A DNA stretch of 52,204 nt from contig JAFMNE010000012.1 of NCBI GenBank assembly GCA_017859395.1, positions 1 through 52,204 on the forward strand, given 5' to 3'. Of the stretch, positions 1-47,152 are shown one piece after another. The notes below the pieces were generated by a model that had not been told where the DNA came from, searched no databases, and worked only from the letters and a program-made list of their open reading frames with translations. Each line of letters starts with the position of its first letter. Positions within the stretch are counted from its first letter, which is position 1. The stretch is from Ilumatobacteraceae bacterium. GTDB lineage: Bacteria; Actinomycetota; Acidimicrobiia; Acidimicrobiales; Ilumatobacteraceae. A program made the position numbers and the translations under genes.

Positions 1-1751
1 ATCCGTCGTCCGTCACCGAGGTGCACCACATCGGTGTTGTCCACGGTGTACTCGACTGACGCACCACCCATCTGCGCTGCGGCAGCCTCTAGGATTTTCT
101 CGCGGACCTTGCGGCACGCTGCATCGACCGCACCGCCGCTCATCCACGTCTGACGTGATGCCGACGTCGAGCCCGCAGATCCCACCCCAGTGTCGATCGT
201 GTCGATATCGACCACATCGAGTCCGAGCACTGTTCGCGCAATCTGAGGGGCGATGGTAACGAAACCCTGTCCCACTTCAGCGGTGGCAAATTTGAGTGTG
301 ACCTGGCCGTTATCAACGATGCAACGCGCGGTGGAGAAGTCGTCGAATCCCTCGGAGTACATCAGGTTCTTGATCGATACGCCGTAACCGATACCGCGAA
401 CCACATCGGTTGCATCGGTGGTGAGCCCGGCACCGCCGGGCAGACCATAGGGATGATCTGCCGGAGCGAGAGGCATATCAGGCAGCGGCAGATGATCTGT
501 CTCGTCGATACAGCGCAGCACTGGAGCGACGCTCTCCACGATCTGACCGGTGATCAGGCGATCACCGGTGGCCATGGCATTGATTCGTCGAACGTCGAGC
601 GGGGATATGCCGCAGGCCTCTGCGAGTTTGTCCATCTGCGCCTCGTGCGCAATGCACGCCTGAACGACGCCAAAGCCGCGCATCGCACCGCACGGAAGGT
701 TATTCGTACGGACAGCCCAACCGTCGACCACCGCGTTGTCACAGCGGTATGGACCCTGAGTGTGGGTCACCGCATTGACGAGTACGGCTGATGAGGTGGA
801 GGCATAGGCGCCACCGTCGAGAATGAACTGGGCCTCAATTTTTACAATCCGACCGTCGGCATCGGCGTGGTGGCGCATCGTGATCGTGGCGGGATGCCGG
901 TGAACATGGCCGACGAAACTTTCAGGACGCGAGTAGTGGATACGTACTGGCCGGCCCGTGCGTAACGCCAGCATGCACGTGTGAACCTGCAGCGAGAGAT
1001 CTTCGCGTCCGCCGAAGGCGCCTCCGACGCCACCAAGCGTCAGGCGCACCGCGTCAGTGGGAAGCGCAAGGCTCGCCGCCAACTGGGCTTGATCTTCATG
1101 TAGCCACTGGGTGGCGACGTGCAATTCGACTCCCGTCCCTCCGGGGTCGGGAATCGCCATTGCCGCTTCAAGGCCGAGAAACGCTTGATCCTGCATGCCG
1201 ATCTCATAGGTGCCCTCCACCACGAACTGTCCGGTCACGGTCGGATCACCGCATTCGATCCGCTGATGGCGGATCACGTTGCCCGACGGGTGAATCGCCT
1301 CGCTGGTTGGATCGATGGCGACCTCTGGATCGACGAGAGGTGTGAGTTCCTCGTAGTCGACGATGATCGCGGCAAGCGCTGCGGCGCACGCCTCGGGCGA
1401 CTCCGCCGCAACGATGGCCACAGGTTCGCCAACAAACCGCACTTCGTCGACCGCCAGAACCGGTTGATCTGCATCGACGAGACCGAAGGCGTTACGGCCA
1501 GGTACATCCTCCGCGGTGAGCACGCACGTCACACCAGCGATACCGAGAGCCGGTGAGGTGTCGAGACGGACGATCCGTGCCCTCGGGTATGGAGAACGAA
1601 GGGTCGCGCCCCACAACGCTCCATCAGCCGACAGATCGGATGAGAACTCGAATTCGCCGCGCACTTTCGCCACACCGTCAGGCCGGGTCACCGACGCCCC
1701 GATGACGCCGCGCCCGGCGGTCTGGTTGGTCGTGTCGGTGGTCGTCGTCAT
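1..1751 (-). CDS. Xanthine dehydrogenase-type molybdenum-binding subunit (partial, C-terminus outside window)
   Basis: Large molybdopterin subunit of a xanthine dehydrogenase/aldehyde oxidase family enzyme; it would hydroxylate a purine or aldehyde at the Mo centre. About 583 N-terminal residues are visible by reading the minus strand from the ATG at 1751. The a/b hammerhead domain covers roughly residues 15-140. The Mo-binding region follows, with GGAFGGRED at about 243-251 and AMRGFG at about 356-361. The AMRGFG loop is the form found in xanthine dehydrogenases; CO dehydrogenase CoxL carries a Cys-Ser-Phe-Arg loop there. The ATG overlaps the stop of the 2Fe-2S gene (ATGA, 1748-1751), so it is the last visible gene of a FAD/FeS/Mo operon. 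Purine substrate is likely but not proven; the family also contains aldehyde and nicotinate hydroxylases. Confidence 0.9.
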   Translation of the reverse strand, partial: MTTTTDTTNQTAGRGVIGASVTRPDGVAKVRGEFEFSSDLSADGALWGATLRSPYPRARIVRLDTSPALGIAGVTCVLTAEDVPGRNAFGLVDADQPVLAVDEVRFVGEPVAIVAAESPEACAAALAAIIVDYEELTPLVDPEVAIDPTSEAIHPSGNVIRHQRIECGDPTVTGQFVVEGTYEIGMQDQAFLGLEAAMAIPDPGGTGVELHVATQWLHEDQAQLAASLALPTDAVRLTLGGVGGAFGGREDLSLQVHTCMLALRTGRPVRIHYSRPESFVGHVHRHPATITMRHHADADGRIVKIEAQFILDGGAYASTSSAVLVNAVTHTQGPYRCDNAVVDGWAVRTNNLPCGAMRGFGVVQACIAHEAQMDKLAEACGISPLDVRRINAMATGDRLITGQIVESVAPVLRCIDETDHLPLPDMPLAPADHPYGLPGGAGLTTDATDVVRGIGYGVSIKNLMYSEGFDDFSTARCIVDNGQVTLKFATAEVGQGFVTIAPQIARTVLGLDVVDIDTIDTGVGSAGSTSASRQTWMSGGAVDAACRKVREKILEAAAAQMGGASVEYTVDNTDVVHLGDGRR

Positions 1752-41095: not shown

Positions 41096-41985
41096 CAACC
41101 GCGCTCAGCGTAGCGCTCGTTCACATCGTCCATGCCAATGCCGGTCATCGGAGCTCCCAAACCGCGGCTCACTTTGGCCAAGATGGCCGGATCACGGAAA
41201 TGGGTCGTGGCTTCGACGATGGCGCGGGCGCGAGGAGCCGGGTCGTCGCTCTTGAAGATGCCGGAACCAACAAACACCGCCTCGGCCCCAAGTTGCATGG
41301 CCATCGCCGCATCTGCGGGCGTCGCGATACCGCCCGCACAAAACAATGGCACCGGCAGCGATCCCGACTCAGCCAGTTCTTGCACCAGCGGCAGCGGTGC
41401 TTGGAGACGCTTCGCCCAGTCGAACAGTTCGGCCGAATCCGCCTGGCCAACACGACGGATATCACCCAGAATCGACCGCAGATGACGAACGGCTTCAACG
41501 ATGTTTCCGGTACCGGCCTCACCTTTAGAGCGGATCATCGCGGCACCTTCGGAAATGCGTCGCAAAGCCTCCCCAAGGTTGGTCGCGCCGCATACGAACG
41601 GCGCGTCGAAAGCAAACTTGTCGATGTGGTGAGCCTCGTCGGCTGGTGTGAGAACTTCCGACTCGTCAATGAAGTCCACGCCCAAGGACTGGAGAATCTG
41701 CGCCTCGACGAAGTGCCCGATGCGGGCCTTGGCCATCACCGGGATCGAGACCGCGGCAATGATGCCGTCGATCATCTCTGGATCGCTCATTCGGGCGACG
41801 CCGCCATCCCGACGAATATCGGCAGGCACTCGCTCCAGCGCCATGACGGCGACGGCACCAGCGTCCTCGGCGACCTTCGCCTGCTCCGGCGTCACAACGT
41901 CCATGATGACGCCTCCGGACAACATCTCTGCGAGTCCACGCTTCACAGGGAACCGTCCGGTCACAGCACTTTGATTTTCGGCCAT
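41092..41985 (-). CDS. pdxS: Pyridoxal 5'-phosphate synthase lyase subunit
   Basis: Builds PLP from ribose-5-phosphate, glyceraldehyde-3-phosphate and ammonia supplied by PdxT (297 aa). Schiff-base lysine regions GVIMDVV and [10 protein letters not shown], plus SKGEAGTGN and [13 protein letters not shown], are all intact. A TAGATT hexamer six bases before the ATG suggests a leaderless pdxS-pdxT-yebC-peroxiredoxin transcript. Confidence 0.97.
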
Positions 41986-41991
41986 AGGGTG

Positions 41992-41997
41992 AATCTA
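41992..41997 (-). promoter_or_regulatory. Predicted -10 element of pdxS-pdxT
   Basis: TAGATT on the minus strand, six bases (caccct) before the ATG at 41985, in the 47-base gap after the DUF3048 gene. Leaderless start inferred. Confidence 0.6.
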
Positions 41998-42032
41998 CTG
42001 CCGGTCGGAGATGCGGGACACTCTGTGCCCGT

Positions 42033-43172
42033 TCAGGAGACGTACATCACGTCGGCCGGATCGTTGCGCGGAAGCTCAACCCACGTCCGACCGGGGGATA
42101 GGCGCACTGGCGTGGTCGCGCTGTTATCCGTGAACAGCCCGATGGGATCAGTGTTGGACTCACGCATCCATACCGCAGGTCGCACGGTGCCATCGGTGAA
42201 CACGAGGGCATCACCTGACCCAACGGTCTGTGCCTCGGGACTGCGTGCATCGACCACACCGGAGCGGTACTCAACAAAGAGAACTACGACGTTGTCGGCT
42301 GACACCTGGCCCGTCAGTTCTGTCGGATGTTCCTCGCCCTTCTGCCACCTGAGGTAGCGACCACTGTCCGCATCGAATTCCCAGCGCACGTCGATTGAAT
42401 CCATTGTGATTTCGACAACCGATGCGGTATCGGCCTCGATTGTCTCGCCCTCGCGCAGATACTCGAATAGCTGCGGTGGTGCGGACGCATCCTCCGGGGC
42501 CTCCGCCCACAAGGTCTCAGTACTCGAGAACAGGTTGTGTGGCGCCCCGCCACGGCCATCGCGTCGGTAATAGGCATTCGCGTACCCGCCGACGTAGCTC
42601 AGGCTCACGAGGGAAGAATTGTTCACCAGGCGCGTGACGCCAGCGTTGCCACCTGACCAGGCGAACAAGGGGCTGTTCAGGTTTGTCAGAAGGTCAATGT
42701 CTTGGGCCCGGCCTGATCGGATCGGACCCACGGGGTCGCTCCCCTGAGAGTGAAATACCACCGCGAAGCGGGTGATGGCATCGTTGATGATCTCTTCGTA
42801 GACGATGTCGGCCTCGTTCAAACCGGTTTGTGGGAGCGCCTGGGAGTTGTTGGGAACCTTGACCACGAGAGCAGGTCGGTCGGGAATCAGGTCCGCGTCC
42901 TCGAGCGGGTGTCCGGTTAACGGCATACGGAACTCGGGCTCGCTGAGTTCGATGTCCTCGATGGTGACATCGCCGGGCGCTGCTGTCGCCGGGGTCGTGG
43001 TCGTTGCCTCGGCGCCCTCATCGTCGGCGGCTGGAACGGTCGTGGACGTGAGGTCATCGACCACGTCGGATACGACATCGAGAATGTCATCCGCTTCTCC
43101 CCCGCCACAAGCGGTCAATGTGAGCAGACCAACTGCGGCACACGCAGCAGCGGTACGAGTGATGGACGTCAT
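42033..43172 (-). CDS. DUF3048 domain lipoprotein (YerB-like)
   Basis: Exported lipoprotein of 379 aa. Signal peptide ends in LTAC with lipid Cys at residue 22, then an acidic Thr-rich linker to about 75. The DUF3048 domain follows, with RPALVVKVPN, QTGLNEADIVYEE, VGPIRSGR and the C-terminal half with WKGEEH-like and VWMRES segments. Function unknown; relatives are cell-envelope proteins. ATG at 43172 overlaps the stop of the M48-like gene by four bases, so the two are a pair. The frame is open upstream to 43271. Confidence 0.88.
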   Translation of the reverse strand: MTSITRTAAACAAVGLLTLTACGGGEADDILDVVSDVVDDLTSTTVPAADDEGAEATTTTPATAAPGDVTIEDIELSEPEFRMPLTGHPLEDADLIPDRPALVVKVPNNSQALPQTGLNEADIVYEEIINDAITRFAVVFHSQGSDPVGPIRSGRAQDIDLLTNLNSPLFAWSGGNAGVTRLVNNSSLVSLSYVGGYANAYYRRDGRGGAPHNLFSSTETLWAEAPEDASAPPQLFEYLREGETIEADTASVVEITMDSIDVRWEFDADSGRYLRWQKGEEHPTELTGQVSADNVVVLFVEYRSGVVDARSPEAQTVGSGDALVFTDGTVRPAVWMRESNTDPIGLFTDNSATTPVRLSPGRTWVELPRNDPADVMYVS

Positions 43173-43900
43173 GATTCCCTCAACATAGTGATGCGGTCGT
43201 GGATATCGGGGTGAACGGCGCCACCGGATGATGACGGATCGAACAGCCAGACGGTTGCCATCGTTGACCACTCACCTGGGACAACTGTTCCCGTCGACGC
43301 CGCCATCGCATAGGCGTCCGCAAGAGCCGGGGGAAATCTGGTGACGCGGGCTGCCGCGGCGTCATCCAAAAACAAGGAGTCCGGTTCGTAGGCCATACCG
43401 ATCGACCAGAGCCGCGACAGATCGCGACAATGGGCCGACAAAGTTGGGGATGTTGCGCGGACAAGCGCCGCGGCAACTAGTCCCTCCATCTCGACCACGC
43501 CGAGTTGCTCGCTGGCCCCGCGGGTGATGACGACGACTGGACTACGACCGTTGCGTGGGACCGAGGCGATGTTGATCGATTCTGCGTCAATCGTGTGCAG
43601 TTCGGCCTCACCTGACCCCGTCATCGTCGCAACCGACGACGCTAGGTTCACAACACGTGGTGATGCTCCCTGATCGGCGTGCTGCGTCAGCCGGTTGACG
43701 AGTTGGTCGGGGCGGGGCCGCATAGCGACCAGCGCTCCAATCGCACCGAGCACAACAATCGCAACGGCGGGAACAACGCCGCCGAGAACAGCGGCAACGA
43801 TTGCGGCGACAACGACAACAACAGCTGCGCCAACGACGCTCCGATTGAACCCGGCACGGGGTTCATCGACGAGGCGCGGGGCGCGTGGGGGCGATGACAT
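43169..43900 (-). CDS. Membrane protein resembling an M48 peptidase without the zinc motif
   Basis: Protein of 243 aa. Two membrane helices at about 21-40 and 41-60 are followed by a domain that matches the M48 (HtpX-like) layout: VVVITRGASEQL (123-133), the helix EMEGLVAAALVRA (137-149) where HExxH should be, LDDAAAARVTRFPPALADA (178-195) where the third-ligand helix is expected, and HPDIHDRITMLRES (230-243) as the usual C-terminal motif. At the HExxH position the residues are AALVR (144-148), so zinc binding is lost. Likely a pseudo-protease with a structural or regulatory role. Paired with the DUF3048 lipoprotein and next to pimA. The family match is by eye. Confidence 0.65.
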   Translation of the reverse strand: MSSPPRAPRLVDEPRAGFNRSVVGAAVVVVVAAIVAAVLGGVVPAVAIVVLGAIGALVAMRPRPDQLVNRLTQHADQGASPRVVNLASSVATMTGSGEAELHTIDAESINIASVPRNGRSPVVVITRGASEQLGVVEMEGLVAAALVRATSPTLSAHCRDLSRLWSIGMAYEPDSLFLDDAAAARVTRFPPALADAYAMAASTGTVVPGEWSTMATVWLFDPSSSGGAVHPDIHDRITMLRES

Positions 43901-43907
43901 CGTGGCG

Positions 43908-43913
43908 ATCCTA
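43908..43913 (-). promoter_or_regulatory. Predicted -10 element of the M48-like/DUF3048 pair
   Basis: TAGGAT on the minus strand, seven bases (cgccacg) before the ATG at 43900, in the 37-base gap after pimA. It supports this ATG over the open upstream frame and suggests the pair is transcribed apart from the PIM genes. Confidence 0.55.
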
Positions 43914-43937
43914 TGCCGTCCGTGATTGCGCCATCGG

Positions 43938-45029
43938 TCAATTCCGGTGGCGTGTATCTGCACGGGCATACAACTCTTCATAGGCTTCGGAGAGTCGATC
44001 CATGGAAAGCTCCGCGGCACGACGTCGTCCAGCCGTAGCCACACGCTGTCGGAGCGCATCATCGGTAATCAACTGCTCTAGGGCATCGGCTAGGGCCGCC
44101 GCATCAGCCGGTGGAACGAGAATGGCGTCGCATTCGTGCGTGGCGACGTTGCGATAGCCGGGTAGATCGCTGGCCACAACTGCAGCGCCATGCGCCATCG
44201 CCTCTGCAAGGACAATGCCAAACGACTCCCCTCCGAGTGATGGTGCGACCAAAACCTGTGACCCCTCGATGGCTGCATCTCGTTCCCCGTCACTGAGACG
44301 ACCGCACCACTGGATCCAGTCCATAGACGCAGTGGCCGCCTGCAAGTCCCGAGTTGCTGGCCCGTCACCGACGATACGCAATACGGGGCGATGCGCACGT
44401 TGTTCCAGCAGGCGCATCGCATCGACCAGCACGTGCAACCCCTTTCGCTCTTCGTGTCGACCGATGAAGACCAGCCCCTGTCGGTTGCCGGGTGCTCCAC
44501 CAGAGCTGTGATCGGCGACTCGGACCCCGTTGAACAACACGTGGTCAACATCGAAGTGCAGGTGCTCTCGGACGAGCTCCGCCGCGTCAGTGGAAACCGC
44601 AACCGACACGTCGAGCCGGTTCAGCAGACGACGAAGCGCCGGACCGAGATAGCGGTAGCTGGTTGACCGACCAGCTGCATGAAAGGTCCCAACCGTTGGC
44701 TGGGCGTGGAGGGTGAGGGCGGTGAGTGTCGGTCCTGGGGCCAAAGGTTCATGAAGGTGGACCAGATCGAACCGTTCATCGCGTAGCGCACGAATCGTGC
44801 GCAACGCCGATGACACATCGGGGGCGAGGGGTGCGACCGATCCATTCGCGGACGTGGGTAACGACTTCCCGAGGGGGGTGACATGTGCAACCGGTGGCGG
44901 CCCGTCGCATGGAGCCAGAACACGTACGTCGTGACCACGAGCCACGAGCGACTCTGCCAGGGATAAGACCTGATGTTGCACTCCACCTGGAACCGACAGC
45001 GAATACGGACAGATCATCCCAATCCGCAT
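43938..45029 (-). CDS. pimA: Phosphatidyl-myo-inositol mannosyltransferase
   Basis: GT4 glycosyltransferase (363 aa) that adds mannose from GDP-mannose to phosphatidylinositol, the first step to PIMs, on the inner face of the membrane. N-terminal PGGVQHQVLSLAESL acceptor loop; donor-site motifs GRHEERKGL and GESFGIVLAEAMA. ATG at 45029 lies one base after the patA stop; the frame is open to 45149. Assignment to PimA rests on the pgsA-patA-pimA order as well as sequence. Confidence 0.9.
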   Translation of the reverse strand: MRIGMICPYSLSVPGGVQHQVLSLAESLVARGHDVRVLAPCDGPPPVAHVTPLGKSLPTSANGSVAPLAPDVSSALRTIRALRDERFDLVHLHEPLAPGPTLTALTLHAQPTVGTFHAAGRSTSYRYLGPALRRLLNRLDVSVAVSTDAAELVREHLHFDVDHVLFNGVRVADHSSGGAPGNRQGLVFIGRHEERKGLHVLVDAMRLLEQRAHRPVLRIVGDGPATRDLQAATASMDWIQWCGRLSDGERDAAIEGSQVLVAPSLGGESFGIVLAEAMAHGAAVVASDLPGYRNVATHECDAILVPPADAAALADALEQLITDDALRQRVATAGRRRAAELSMDRLSEAYEELYARADTRHRN

Positions 45030-45030
45030 G

Positions 45031-45915
45031 TCACTCCGCTCCGTTCGGCGCATGATTCCAACGCGGCTGAAACATGTGCCACTGCTCCGGTGCGGCAGCA
45101 ATGAGCGCATCGAGCTCGTCAGCAAGACATTGCGTGACACGAGCGACATCGGTGCGCATGTTCTCCCGACGTTGGGTGTCTACCGGCGGGCGTACGAGAC
45201 CGATATGTCCGAGCCCAGGCCAGGTGGTGTACACCGCCGTTGGCAACAGAGTTGCCCCAGTTCGCAGAGCCAATGTTGCCGCACCCCCGGGGATCGTTGT
45301 GCTGTGACCAAAGAACTCGACCCTCACCCCGTCGCCGCTCAGGTCGCGATCGGACAGCAGGCACAGCACGCCATTGCGACGCAGGACGCCGAGGGCATCT
45401 TTACCGGCATCAGGCCCGAGCGGAATCACGGTGATTCCGACGGACTGCCGTACGGATCGGTGGAGTTCAAATACCTGATCATCGCCGAGTCGCTCGGCCA
45501 CTGCTGCCACCTCGACGCCGCGTAGTGCGAGCCATCGACCAGCCCATTCCCATCCGCCGAGATGCGGCAATGCGAGAATCGTGCCCTTGCCACGCTCGAT
45601 TGATGCGGCGACGTAGTCCCAGCCGTGGACGTCAATCCCATCACGGACTTCGGTGGCGCTGATTCCAGGCAGGCGAAAGGCTTCGAACCAGTACCGCAGA
45701 TATTCGGTGACTGCGCGGTCGCAACGTTGTCGCTCCCAGCGGCGGCCTACCGGCGCAACGACCGCGAGATTGGCTCGAACCCGCCGTCGGATAGACCGCG
45801 AGGTGATGCGCGACGCCAGCCCGGCACATTGACACACGGCGAGCGCAACACGCGGAGAAACTTTCGCCGAGAGCGTGACCGCAGTTCGTTGGACGCGGTA
45901 GTTCAGTGATGTCAC
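45031..45915 (-). CDS. patA: Phosphatidylinositol mannoside acyltransferase
   Basis: LpxL/HtrB-family acyltransferase (294 aa) that acylates the mannose of PIM1/PIM2. The H-x4-E catalytic motif is His118-Glu123 in PHLGGWEW; an N-terminal hydrophobic stretch (about 20-38) holds it at the membrane; FQPRWNH lies at the C-terminus. It overlaps pgsA by four bases and is followed directly by pimA. Confidence 0.9.
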   Translation of the reverse strand: MTSLNYRVQRTAVTLSAKVSPRVALAVCQCAGLASRITSRSIRRRVRANLAVVAPVGRRWERQRCDRAVTEYLRYWFEAFRLPGISATEVRDGIDVHGWDYVAASIERGKGTILALPHLGGWEWAGRWLALRGVEVAAVAERLGDDQVFELHRSVRQSVGITVIPLGPDAGKDALGVLRRNGVLCLLSDRDLSGDGVRVEFFGHSTTIPGGAATLALRTGATLLPTAVYTTWPGLGHIGLVRPPVDTQRRENMRTDVARVTQCLADELDALIAAAPEQWHMFQPRWNHAPNGAE

Positions 45916-46628
45916 CGGGTGCCGCCGCGGCGTCGTGACACCGTCACCCGCTCGTGCGTCCCCACACCTCGACCAGAGCGGCGCTCGACGCGACGCTCAC
46001 GTCGATCTTCAATTCGACGTTGCGTGGCATCGGAGACCTCGGCGGCAGTCCACACCTTCACAAAACGCTGGATGGCGGTGATGATGATCAATGCGAGCAT
46101 CACCCACAGGATCACAACCAAGGCACCATCGAGGCCTACACCCTCGAGCAGGAGCCCGAGGCACAGCGCGACAATGCGCTCGGCGCGTTCCATGAGGCCA
46201 CCTTTGGCCTCGATACCGAGCGATTCAGCCTTTGCTCGTTGGTATGAGATCAACGACGCCACCGCGGAGACCGCAAACGGTAGCAACGACAGTCGCGGCG
46301 AATCTTGTCCCACGAGGTACCACGCGATCCCGCCGAACAACAGCGCATCGGTGATGCGATCCATCGTCGAGTCGAAAAAGGCACCACGTTGGCTCGATGT
46401 TCCCGACGCCTTCGCCAGCGCCCCGTCGAACAGATCGGGCAACGCTGCAGCGATAACAAGGATTAACCCGGTGATCATCATGCCGGCGCCGATGGCGAGC
46501 GCAGCGAGCGCCGCCACCACGAGACCACCGAGGGTGAGTTGGTCGGGGGTTATCCGGGTGCGCCGAAGAAGCGCACCGATAGGTCGAACTGCCCGATCAA
46601 CGGGACCACGAAAAGCGCCATCAAGCAT
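45912..46628 (-). CDS. pgsA: CDP-alcohol phosphatidyltransferase (phosphatidylinositol phosphate synthase type)
   Basis: Transfers the phosphatidyl group from CDP-diacylglycerol to an alcohol, here most likely inositol-1-phosphate (238 aa, about six helices). The signature D-x2-D-G-x2-A-R-x8-G-x3-D-x3-D is met by Asp65, Asp68-Gly69, Ala72, Gly82, Asp86 and Asp90, but the Arg is Lys73. The C-terminal tail is Arg-rich. ATG at 46628 shares one base with the stop of the upstream gene (TGATG). Position before patA and pimA supports the inositol assignment over phosphatidylglycerol synthesis. Confidence 0.88.
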   Translation of the reverse strand: MLDGAFRGPVDRAVRPIGALLRRTRITPDQLTLGGLVVAALAALAIGAGMMITGLILVIAAALPDLFDGALAKASGTSSQRGAFFDSTMDRITDALLFGGIAWYLVGQDSPRLSLLPFAVSAVASLISYQRAKAESLGIEAKGGLMERAERIVALCLGLLLEGVGLDGALVVILWVMLALIIITAIQRFVKVWTAAEVSDATQRRIEDRRERRVERRSGRGVGTHERVTVSRRRGGTR

Positions 46629-47152
46629 CAGGAGGCCTCCGACTCGTGATAGCCGAGGTCGTCCGCCGGGTTGTCTTCAACCAAATATTCAACAACAGAT
46701 CCGTTGATTGCATCGACGAGGACGAGACCGCGGCGACGAGGCGGTTCCTCAATCGAATACACCAACACCCGCCATGTTGGACGGGAGCGAATCCCTCGCC
46801 AGACCTGCTGCGCCGAGGCGTGACCTGCGGGAAAGCCCACCGCCCCTTGGGCCGCCACGAGCGCGTCACGCTCGGTAATGGCCATCCGCCAACCGCTTGC
46901 CATTCCGTAGAGGCCGAACGCGCCGAGCAGGCCACCGGCAACGGCCACTCCCTCGTTGAGTCGGATGCCGTCAATGGCGAGCCCTGCGATCAGGCTGGCG
47001 CCACCCAACACCAGATAGATCGCGGCAGGGATACGACGCCGTGAATTATCTGGGAATTTGTATTGGCCGACGTAGCCCGCCGCGTCAAGATCGTCGGGGA
47101 GCTCGTCGGTGTACGTGTCGACGAGGTCGGACTGCGCATCGGGCTCACCCAT
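46628..47152 (-). CDS. Conserved two-helix membrane protein of unknown function
   Basis: Protein of 174 aa that I do not recognise. Acidic N-terminal 30 residues, two membrane helices (about 41-62 and 68-90), then a soluble domain of about 80 residues with RPTWRVLVYSIEEPPRRRG and DAINGSVVEYLVEDNP. It sits between the HIT gene and pgsA and is translationally coupled to pgsA (TGATG), which points to a role in the PI/PIM cluster. A TACCCT hexamer seven bases before its ATG may start the transcript for this gene and pgsA-patA-pimA. Confidence 0.8.
   Translation of the reverse strand: MGEPDAQSDLVDTYTDELPDDLDAAGYVGQYKFPDNSRRRIPAAIYLVLGGASLIAGLAIDGIRLNEGVAVAGGLLGAFGLYGMASGWRMAITERDALVAAQGAVGFPAGHASAQQVWRGIRSRPTWRVLVYSIEEPPRRRGLVLVDAINGSVVEYLVEDNPADDLGYHESEAS

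Follow-up and report, generated by a model that had tools for sequence, protein, structure and literature searches.

What is a gene that has kept the open frame and the chromosomal position of a membrane protease, and has lost all three zinc ligands of that enzyme? The question is raised by one gene in the window, by which we mean the whole stretch of 52,204 nucleotides from an Ilumatobacteraceae genome that was analysed. A first-pass annotation, made from the letters of the DNA, had described this gene as an M48-like membrane protein without HExxH and as a retained pseudo-protease. Its identity as an HtpX (M48B) orthologue that lost the zinc site in place is well supported, and we regard it as very probably a dead, retained HtpX. 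The whole explanation, in which a dead HtpX is retained after what were probably several losses and would act as a non-catalytic membrane adaptor, is one that we accept on balance and with reserve.

The gene and its neighbours

The span, strand and length first given for the gene are correct. It starts with ATG at 43900, ends with a stop codon at 43169-43171, and encodes 243 residues in an intact frame. The gene, its parts and its neighbours are as follows.

43169 to 43900, minus strand: dead HtpX (M48B-derived) gene, 243 aa; open frame, match to NCBIfam HtpX, locus shared with the intact htpX of relatives
43724 to 43843, minus strand: two N-terminal hydrophobic helices, residues 20-39 and 42-59 (structure model)
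43556 to 43579, minus strand: edge-strand region SINIASVP, residues 108-115, with Asn110 kept and Ala replaced by Ile (alignment; edge strand N105-A106-F107 in BepA)
43457 to 43471, minus strand: former HExxH, now AALVR, residues 144-148 (alignment to relatives)
43361 to 43381, minus strand: former third-ligand segment, now DSLFLDD, residues 174-180, with the ligand Glu lost and Asp180 kept (alignment)
43328 to 43342, minus strand: TRFPP core motif, residues 187-191; T, R and the first P are kept in 27/27 dead copies of the family
43193 to 43213, minus strand: HPDIHDR, residues 230-236, the HPx4R active-site-plug motif of M48 (frame translation)
43176 to 43181, minus strand: GAGGGA, likely ribosome-binding sequence of the DUF3048 gene, inside the htpX frame
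42033 to 43172, minus strand: DUF3048 lipoprotein gene (Pfam PF11258, 4.5e-32, 111.7 bits; PF17479, 2.8e-21, 76.4 bits; cut-offs 25)
43938 to 45029, minus strand: PimA-like GT4 glycosyltransferase (Pfam GT4 domains)
45031 to 45915, minus strand: phosphatidylinositol mannoside acyltransferase (NCBIfam PRK07920, 232 bits, cut-off 209)
45912 to 46628, minus strand: phosphatidylinositol-phosphate-synthase-like gene (NCBIfam PIPSynth, 155 bits, below the cut-off of 170)

The proposed coupling to the DUF3048 lipoprotein gene is real in the sense that the start of this gene overlaps the stop of the dead htpX (ATGA, 43169-43172). Such an overlap with the next gene is not general, and is found at 9/27 dead and 31/88 intact loci of the family described below. 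On the other side, a GT4 glycosyltransferase ends 37 bases upstream of the dead htpX. The annotation had called this neighbour pimA; a glycosyltransferase does adjoin, and the name PimA is owed to its context, because, of 25 NCBIfam models listed for the gene, not one scored at or above its cut-off. The promoter that had been predicted for the gene itself did not reappear, as a scan for sites of the sigma-70 type found none in 41900-45300. The neighbours, namely the PIM acyltransferase, the PIP-synthase-like gene, the GT4 glycosyltransferase and DUF3048, suggest an envelope role for the dead HtpX.

Further upstream, a 174-aa protein is encoded at 46631-47152 (minus strand), downstream of a gene that is presumably HIT-like, judging from its motif. 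The 174-aa protein has no Pfam or NCBIfam match at E 0.001.

Kinship with M48 and HtpX

The Pfam search that had been proposed as a check against Peptidase_M48 gave no match to the window's protein, and the PF01435 cut-off was not reached. Three dead relatives of the same genus do exceed that cut-off, with 23.7-24.6 bits against 20.3. The NCBIfam HtpX model PRK04897 matches the window's protein itself (E 9e-8, in two stretches), far below its equivalog cut-off of 355 bits. Additionally, an hhalign comparison of the protein with seven intact relatives gave a probability of 95 over residues 73-242.

A structure model was built with the guidance of a 28-row alignment, composed of 25 dead and three intact HtpX rows, and reached a pLDDT of 85.5 and a pTM of 0.77. 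The two helices that had been said to precede an M48-type domain are present in it. Structure comparison also bears out the likeness to M48, with BepA as the best match (Z 13.0, 3.2 A, 158 residues), followed by ZMPSTE24 (Z 12.9) and the HtpX domain 3cqb (Z 8.7, with 95/101 of its residues aligned). The guiding alignment, with its three intact HtpX rows, presupposes homology, and these matches are therefore support and not proof. Likewise, a PDB sequence search with the 28-row profile finds 3cqb, and that profile itself includes intact HtpX.

Could the protein be unrelated to M48 after all? Several results would agree with this: neither Pfam nor a PDB sequence search with the protein alone gives a match, Foldseek with the model returned nothing at E <= 0.001 (its best E was no better than 0.03), and a model from the single sequence, without any alignment, has low confidence (pLDDT 46), its elements standing in a similar order. 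Against them stand the NCBIfam match, the hhalign result, the identity of the locus, and a graded series of relatives that leads to the three same-genus copies above the Pfam M48 cut-off. We consider the lack of kinship barely credible.

Loss of the zinc site

The first reading of the active site holds, both for the zinc motif and for the missing third-ligand Glu. Residues 144-148 read AALVR, and residue 176, which aligns with the third-ligand position, is Leu. Measured as an active M48/HtpX enzyme, the protein lacks HExxH, the third-ligand Glu (ExxxD) and a score at the Pfam PF01435 cut-off. The distance between the old ligands has changed as well. Only 27 residues, without a hydrophobic segment, separate them in the window's copy, against 75-76 in 88/88 intact copies; the second membrane hairpin that intact orthologues carry at this place is missing. 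The tail motif HPDIHDR remains, in the form HPx4R of the active-site plug that sections of PMC7950410 describe for M48.

The same locus in the genus and family

The relatives of the window's genome show what stood at this place. Among the 16 genomes of the genus, 12 loci were readable. Eight of them have the order glycosyltransferase - lemA - htpX (HExxH) - DUF3048, and the other four (the window, G005, G008 and G015) the order glycosyltransferase - dead htpX - DUF3048.

The comparison was widened to 115 loci of the family Ilumatobacteraceae in 23 genus groups, drawn from a 150-genome sample with G005 and G010 from the genus search, and with G092 and G148 added to the locus set by hand. Left out were 14/125 genomes with listed DUF3048 matches, for which the matches listed showed nothing of M48 type within 2.5 kb on the same strand. 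The general order is pimA-like - (lemA) - htpX - DUF3048, with the htpX copy intact at 88/115 loci and dead at 27/115. The alignment of orthologues at residues 144-148, proposed by the annotation as a check, places HExxH exactly there in the 88 loci. An intact HExxH elsewhere in the protein, which had been named as a reason to abandon the reading, is absent from 27/27 dead frames. As orthologues carry HExxH either in place or nowhere in the frame, a displaced motif was not observed. At none of the 115 does a dead copy neighbour an intact one.

The pattern of residues is sharply divided between the two states. At the alignment columns, the residues H, E, H, E and D are present in 88/88 intact copies. 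In the numbering of the intact G001 copy, the dead ones have lost Glu144 and His147 in 27/27 cases and the third ligand, Glu224, in 26/27, and they keep Asp228, Thr235, Arg236 and Pro238 in 27/27, the Asp being also present in 88/88 intact copies. The first His of the zinc motif is lost in 14/27. The second His is replaced by Arg in 26 dead copies and by Gln in one, and Cys takes the place of the catalytic Glu in 9/27, all of them in genus g2. The Asn of the edge strand is kept in 18/27 dead copies and is absent from all eight of genus g25. The plug Arg of HPx4R is found in 26/27, the remaining copy being gapped there. Between the ligands, intact copies have their 75-76 residues with two hydrophobic segments in 87/88 cases, whereas dead copies have 27-83 (median 40), without a hydrophobic segment in 24/27. 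The neighbour lemA, called by blastp with one LemA sequence, is at the locus in 87/88 intact cases (the remaining one is cut by a contig end) versus 4/26 judgeable dead ones.

Three further observations concern individual copies. The copy of G063 (L139, about 713-1636, minus strand) is partly decayed: it reads QQLSQ and keeps the third-ligand Glu and the hairpin, in a genome with no lemA match. At L231:250-1182, a copy reads HQLSH, with the catalytic Glu changed to Gln and both His kept, possibly as an early stage of loss or as a zinc-binding non-protease. Finally, the lemA beside an intact htpX at G007:C100:48250-48696 has an in-frame TAA, which may mark the beginning of a loss of lemA or else a fault of the assembly.

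A second, wider group

Dead copies of a similar kind were also found beyond this set. Named genomes were scanned with a profile made from the three dead copies of the window's genus, and 77 loci were obtained. HExxH stands at the site in 14 of these and is absent from it in 63, including L256, which has a chance HExxH elsewhere and is counted among those without. Five of the 63 (L218-L222) had already entered the family count, as G008, G015, G005, G040 and G057. As many as 54/63 are of one kind (L238, L239, L242, L243, L245-L294), with frames of 300-308 codons and H[CL]xAR at the old site; the loci were drawn by two short peptide patterns, and this number is therefore no census. The labels of the 54 read Acidimicrobiaceae in 26 cases and Actinomycetes in 13, and the rest are Acidimicrobiales, actinobacterium, Actinomycetota, Actinobacteria and four Acidobacteria.

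This second group has a PimA-like GT4 gene adjoining in 53/54 cases, and no DUF3048 gene was seen beside its loci in the stretches fetched. All 54 copies have lost the third-ligand Glu and have Arg for the second His, and all 54 keep the Asp, the Arg, the Asn-Ala of the edge strand and the plug Arg of HPx4R. The position of the catalytic Glu is occupied by Cys in 49 and by Leu in five.

The HExxH copies of the scan add a clue to the order of events. A PimA-like gene precedes 10/12 of them (L228-L230, L232-L237, L240, L241, L244). The four that were aligned (L228, L229, L233, L241), three of which follow a PimA-like gene, have just 37 residues between the ligands, so loss of the hairpin can precede loss of the zinc site.

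Another M48 protease in the same genomes

A genome whose resident copy is dead usually has an M48 protease elsewhere. Such extra M48 copies were counted among the matches listed (down to about 105 bits), together with one of 94 bits in G015, whose gene is truncated where the contig ends; G005 and G010 were assessed separately. A strong extra M48 occurs, among the matches listed, in 23/27 dead versus 22/88 intact genomes (Fisher p 3e-8, uncorrected for kinship), and HExxH was read in 17 of the 23 copies of dead-locus genomes. Within genus g1 the counts are 3/4 dead versus 0/8 intact, and within g25 they are 7/8 versus 0/3. When independent pairs are compared, five pairs remain and the association is not significant (median p 0.25), because the pairs are too few. 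In the second group, another M48 at 118 bits or above is present, by score, in 20/20 sampled genomes.

The genomes nearest to the window follow the same line. Three of the four same-genus dead-locus genomes have an intact htpX beside lemA on another contig, and the fourth, G005, is only 58% complete. A search of the genome contigs with the window's own protein gave no matches, and no close relative of this protein was found. The window's genome carries its intact lemA-htpX pair on another contig (L001, G000:C71 19004-22678), and a move or a duplication of the pair may therefore have preceded the death of the resident copy.

How often was the activity lost?

The favoured reading is that activity was lost several times within the family, in parallel, as opposed to one dead gene having spread. 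A 68-row tree built from the two flanking proteins requires six changes between the dead and intact states, five of which are forced by well-supported branches, and a single clade of dead loci is rejected (AU p=0.0001). This tree tracks the genera.

The competing account is that one ancient dead copy was passed by recombination between different genera, entering the same locus in each and displacing the intact htpX there. It draws on the tree of the M48 protein itself, which, with catalytic columns removed, unites all 27 dead copies in one branch with support 96. The replacement of the second His by Arg, common to 26/27 family copies and to 54/54 of the second group, would also fit common descent, although this is one base change. 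We did not use the M48 tree to count origins because long branches meet in it. When the dead copies were placed one group at a time in nine sets, none fell with its own genus, two joined the intact copies at their base, and certain wider groupings with other genera reached support of 93-98. The nearest joins, however, vary between sets, with support of 0-49 in 7/9 of them, and the M48 data do not reject, in any of five AU tests (p 0.22 to 0.69), a placement of dead copies beside intact ones from their own genus. The dead motifs are also diverse (HLLAR, ACLAR, WLVSR, QQLSQ, HQLSH, RELAR, HCLAR), partly decayed copies such as that of G063, with third ligand and hairpin, exist, and no locus holds an intact and a dead copy next to each other. 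Spread by recombination is thus unlikely in our judgement, though a serious contender, and parallel loss is retained as the favoured history.

Are the dead copies kept?

The annotation had called the gene a retained pseudo-protease, and this claim draws support from related dead copies, whose dN/dS lies below 1, as distinct from the window's own copy, which is very divergent. The values for 14 dead pairs are 0.047-0.513, and those for the five of six intact pairs that were computable are 0.023-0.053; the frames were taken from stop to stop, and some in g2 include an upstream overlap with the glycosyltransferase. Being higher than in intact copies and yet below 1, the dead values indicate that selection is relaxed but real. 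In the second group, the 14 closest of 31 pairs gave 0.053-0.203, lower than the adjacent glycosyltransferase in 12/14.

Two other fates were weighed. The gene might be a pseudogene on its way out, with a frame that stays open by accident, or on account of the ribosome-binding site of DUF3048 at its 3' end; the GAGGGA within the frame would suit this idea. So would the redundancy offered by an intact htpX elsewhere in the genome, the shortening, by about 50 residues, of the stretch that separates the old zinc ligands (27 against 76), and the very long branch of the window's copy, the most divergent of all M48 copies in the M48 tree (6.67). Yet the frame is intact and codon-biased: the codon log-odds of 43169-43900 are 47.6 in frame against -25.7 for the best of 2000 shuffles, just 2/2000 shuffles are free of stops, and codon usage resembles that of neighbouring genes. 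With the dN/dS of related dead copies and an alignment-guided model that is confident in the domain, this makes decay improbable. The protein might instead have remained an enzyme that uses another metal, or a Cys-Arg-Asp centre, where zinc used to be, and the recurrence of certain residues at the old site invites such a proposal, as Arg stands for the second His, Asp is always present, and Cys replaces Glu in 9/27 and 49/54 copies. Among the 27, however, this Cys is confined to g2 and is found neither in the window's copy nor in g1, g5, g7, g13, g25 or g26, and we know of no zincin or cysteine peptidase with the Cys-Arg-Asp set. Continued catalysis of this kind is highly improbable. The best reading is that of a retained HtpX pseudoprotease, whose loss of catalysis is predicted from sequence.

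Proposed function

A dead HtpX of this kind would be kept because it still functions without cutting. The two-helix membrane anchor would present a zinc-free M48 domain, whose edge strand may still bind client polypeptides. The protein could then be an adaptor that works like a chaperone, or it could have a regulatory part beside an intact M48 protease or the DUF3048 lipoprotein, and it would act in a module making the inositol lipids of the envelope. The precedents of BepA and RF1-OMA1, the retention of the plug Arg and the edge Asn, and the envelope neighbours make binding without cutting the most likely role, while the edge strand of the window's copy, which reads N-I and not N-A, counts against it. 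The adaptor mechanism, with its binding, its partner and its envelope role, is offered as a tentative proposal.

A wider generalisation is more doubtful still. The Acidimicrobiales may have repeatedly converted the htpX of the inositol-lipid locus into a membrane-anchored protein that does not cut, and that serves lipoproteins or glycolipid enzymes of the envelope as a chaperone or adaptor. This conversion would be directional, with zinc ligands, hairpin and usually lemA lost and Arg and Asp fixed, once another M48 was present.

In-place loss of catalysis, probably repeated, with intact orthologues in sister species, amounts to a natural experiment. It separates the cutting by HtpX from what its fold does by binding, and connects HtpX, together with LemA, to that part of the actinobacterial envelope which consists of inositol lipids.

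Comparison with known systems

Inactive metallopeptidase homologues are known to be kept for binding or regulation, as portions of the review PMC11266112 set out; a term search of its main text gave no occurrence of M48, HtpX, OMA1 or STE24. Dead M48 proteins as such are already known from RF1-OMA1; a dead HtpX, at this locus or elsewhere, did not come up in the open-licence literature that was searched.

The nearest relative is HtpX itself (M48B, PF01435, PRK04897). The window's protein shares with it the model fold, the order of elements, T187, R188, P190, D180, the HPx4R tail and the chromosomal position of the orthologue. It differs in having none of the three zinc ligands, no catalytic Glu, no second hairpin, no adjacent lemA and no Pfam match.

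BepA of E. coli, the best structure match, offers a precedent for the proposed binding. Its edge strand N105-A106-F107 contacts the client and is needed for both chaperone-like activity and cutting, according to sections of PMC8423444, and the N-A-F of this strand corresponds to the N-A positions of dead HtpX. Unlike the window's protein, BepA is a periplasmic zinc enzyme with a TPR domain, acting on the outer-membrane LptD.

RF1-OMA1, the restorer of fertility of sugar beet, is the precedent for a dead motif. According to parts of PMC6894571, it carries HQVGH and binds the membrane protein preSATP6, whose total amount stays almost unchanged; it resembles the present case in being related to M48, in having a dead motif and in sharing its genome with an HExxH paralogue. 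It is unlike ours in being a plant duplicate from the OMA1 branch, with Glu changed to Gln and both His kept. Here, the copy at the original locus is the dead one, and the working copy lies elsewhere.
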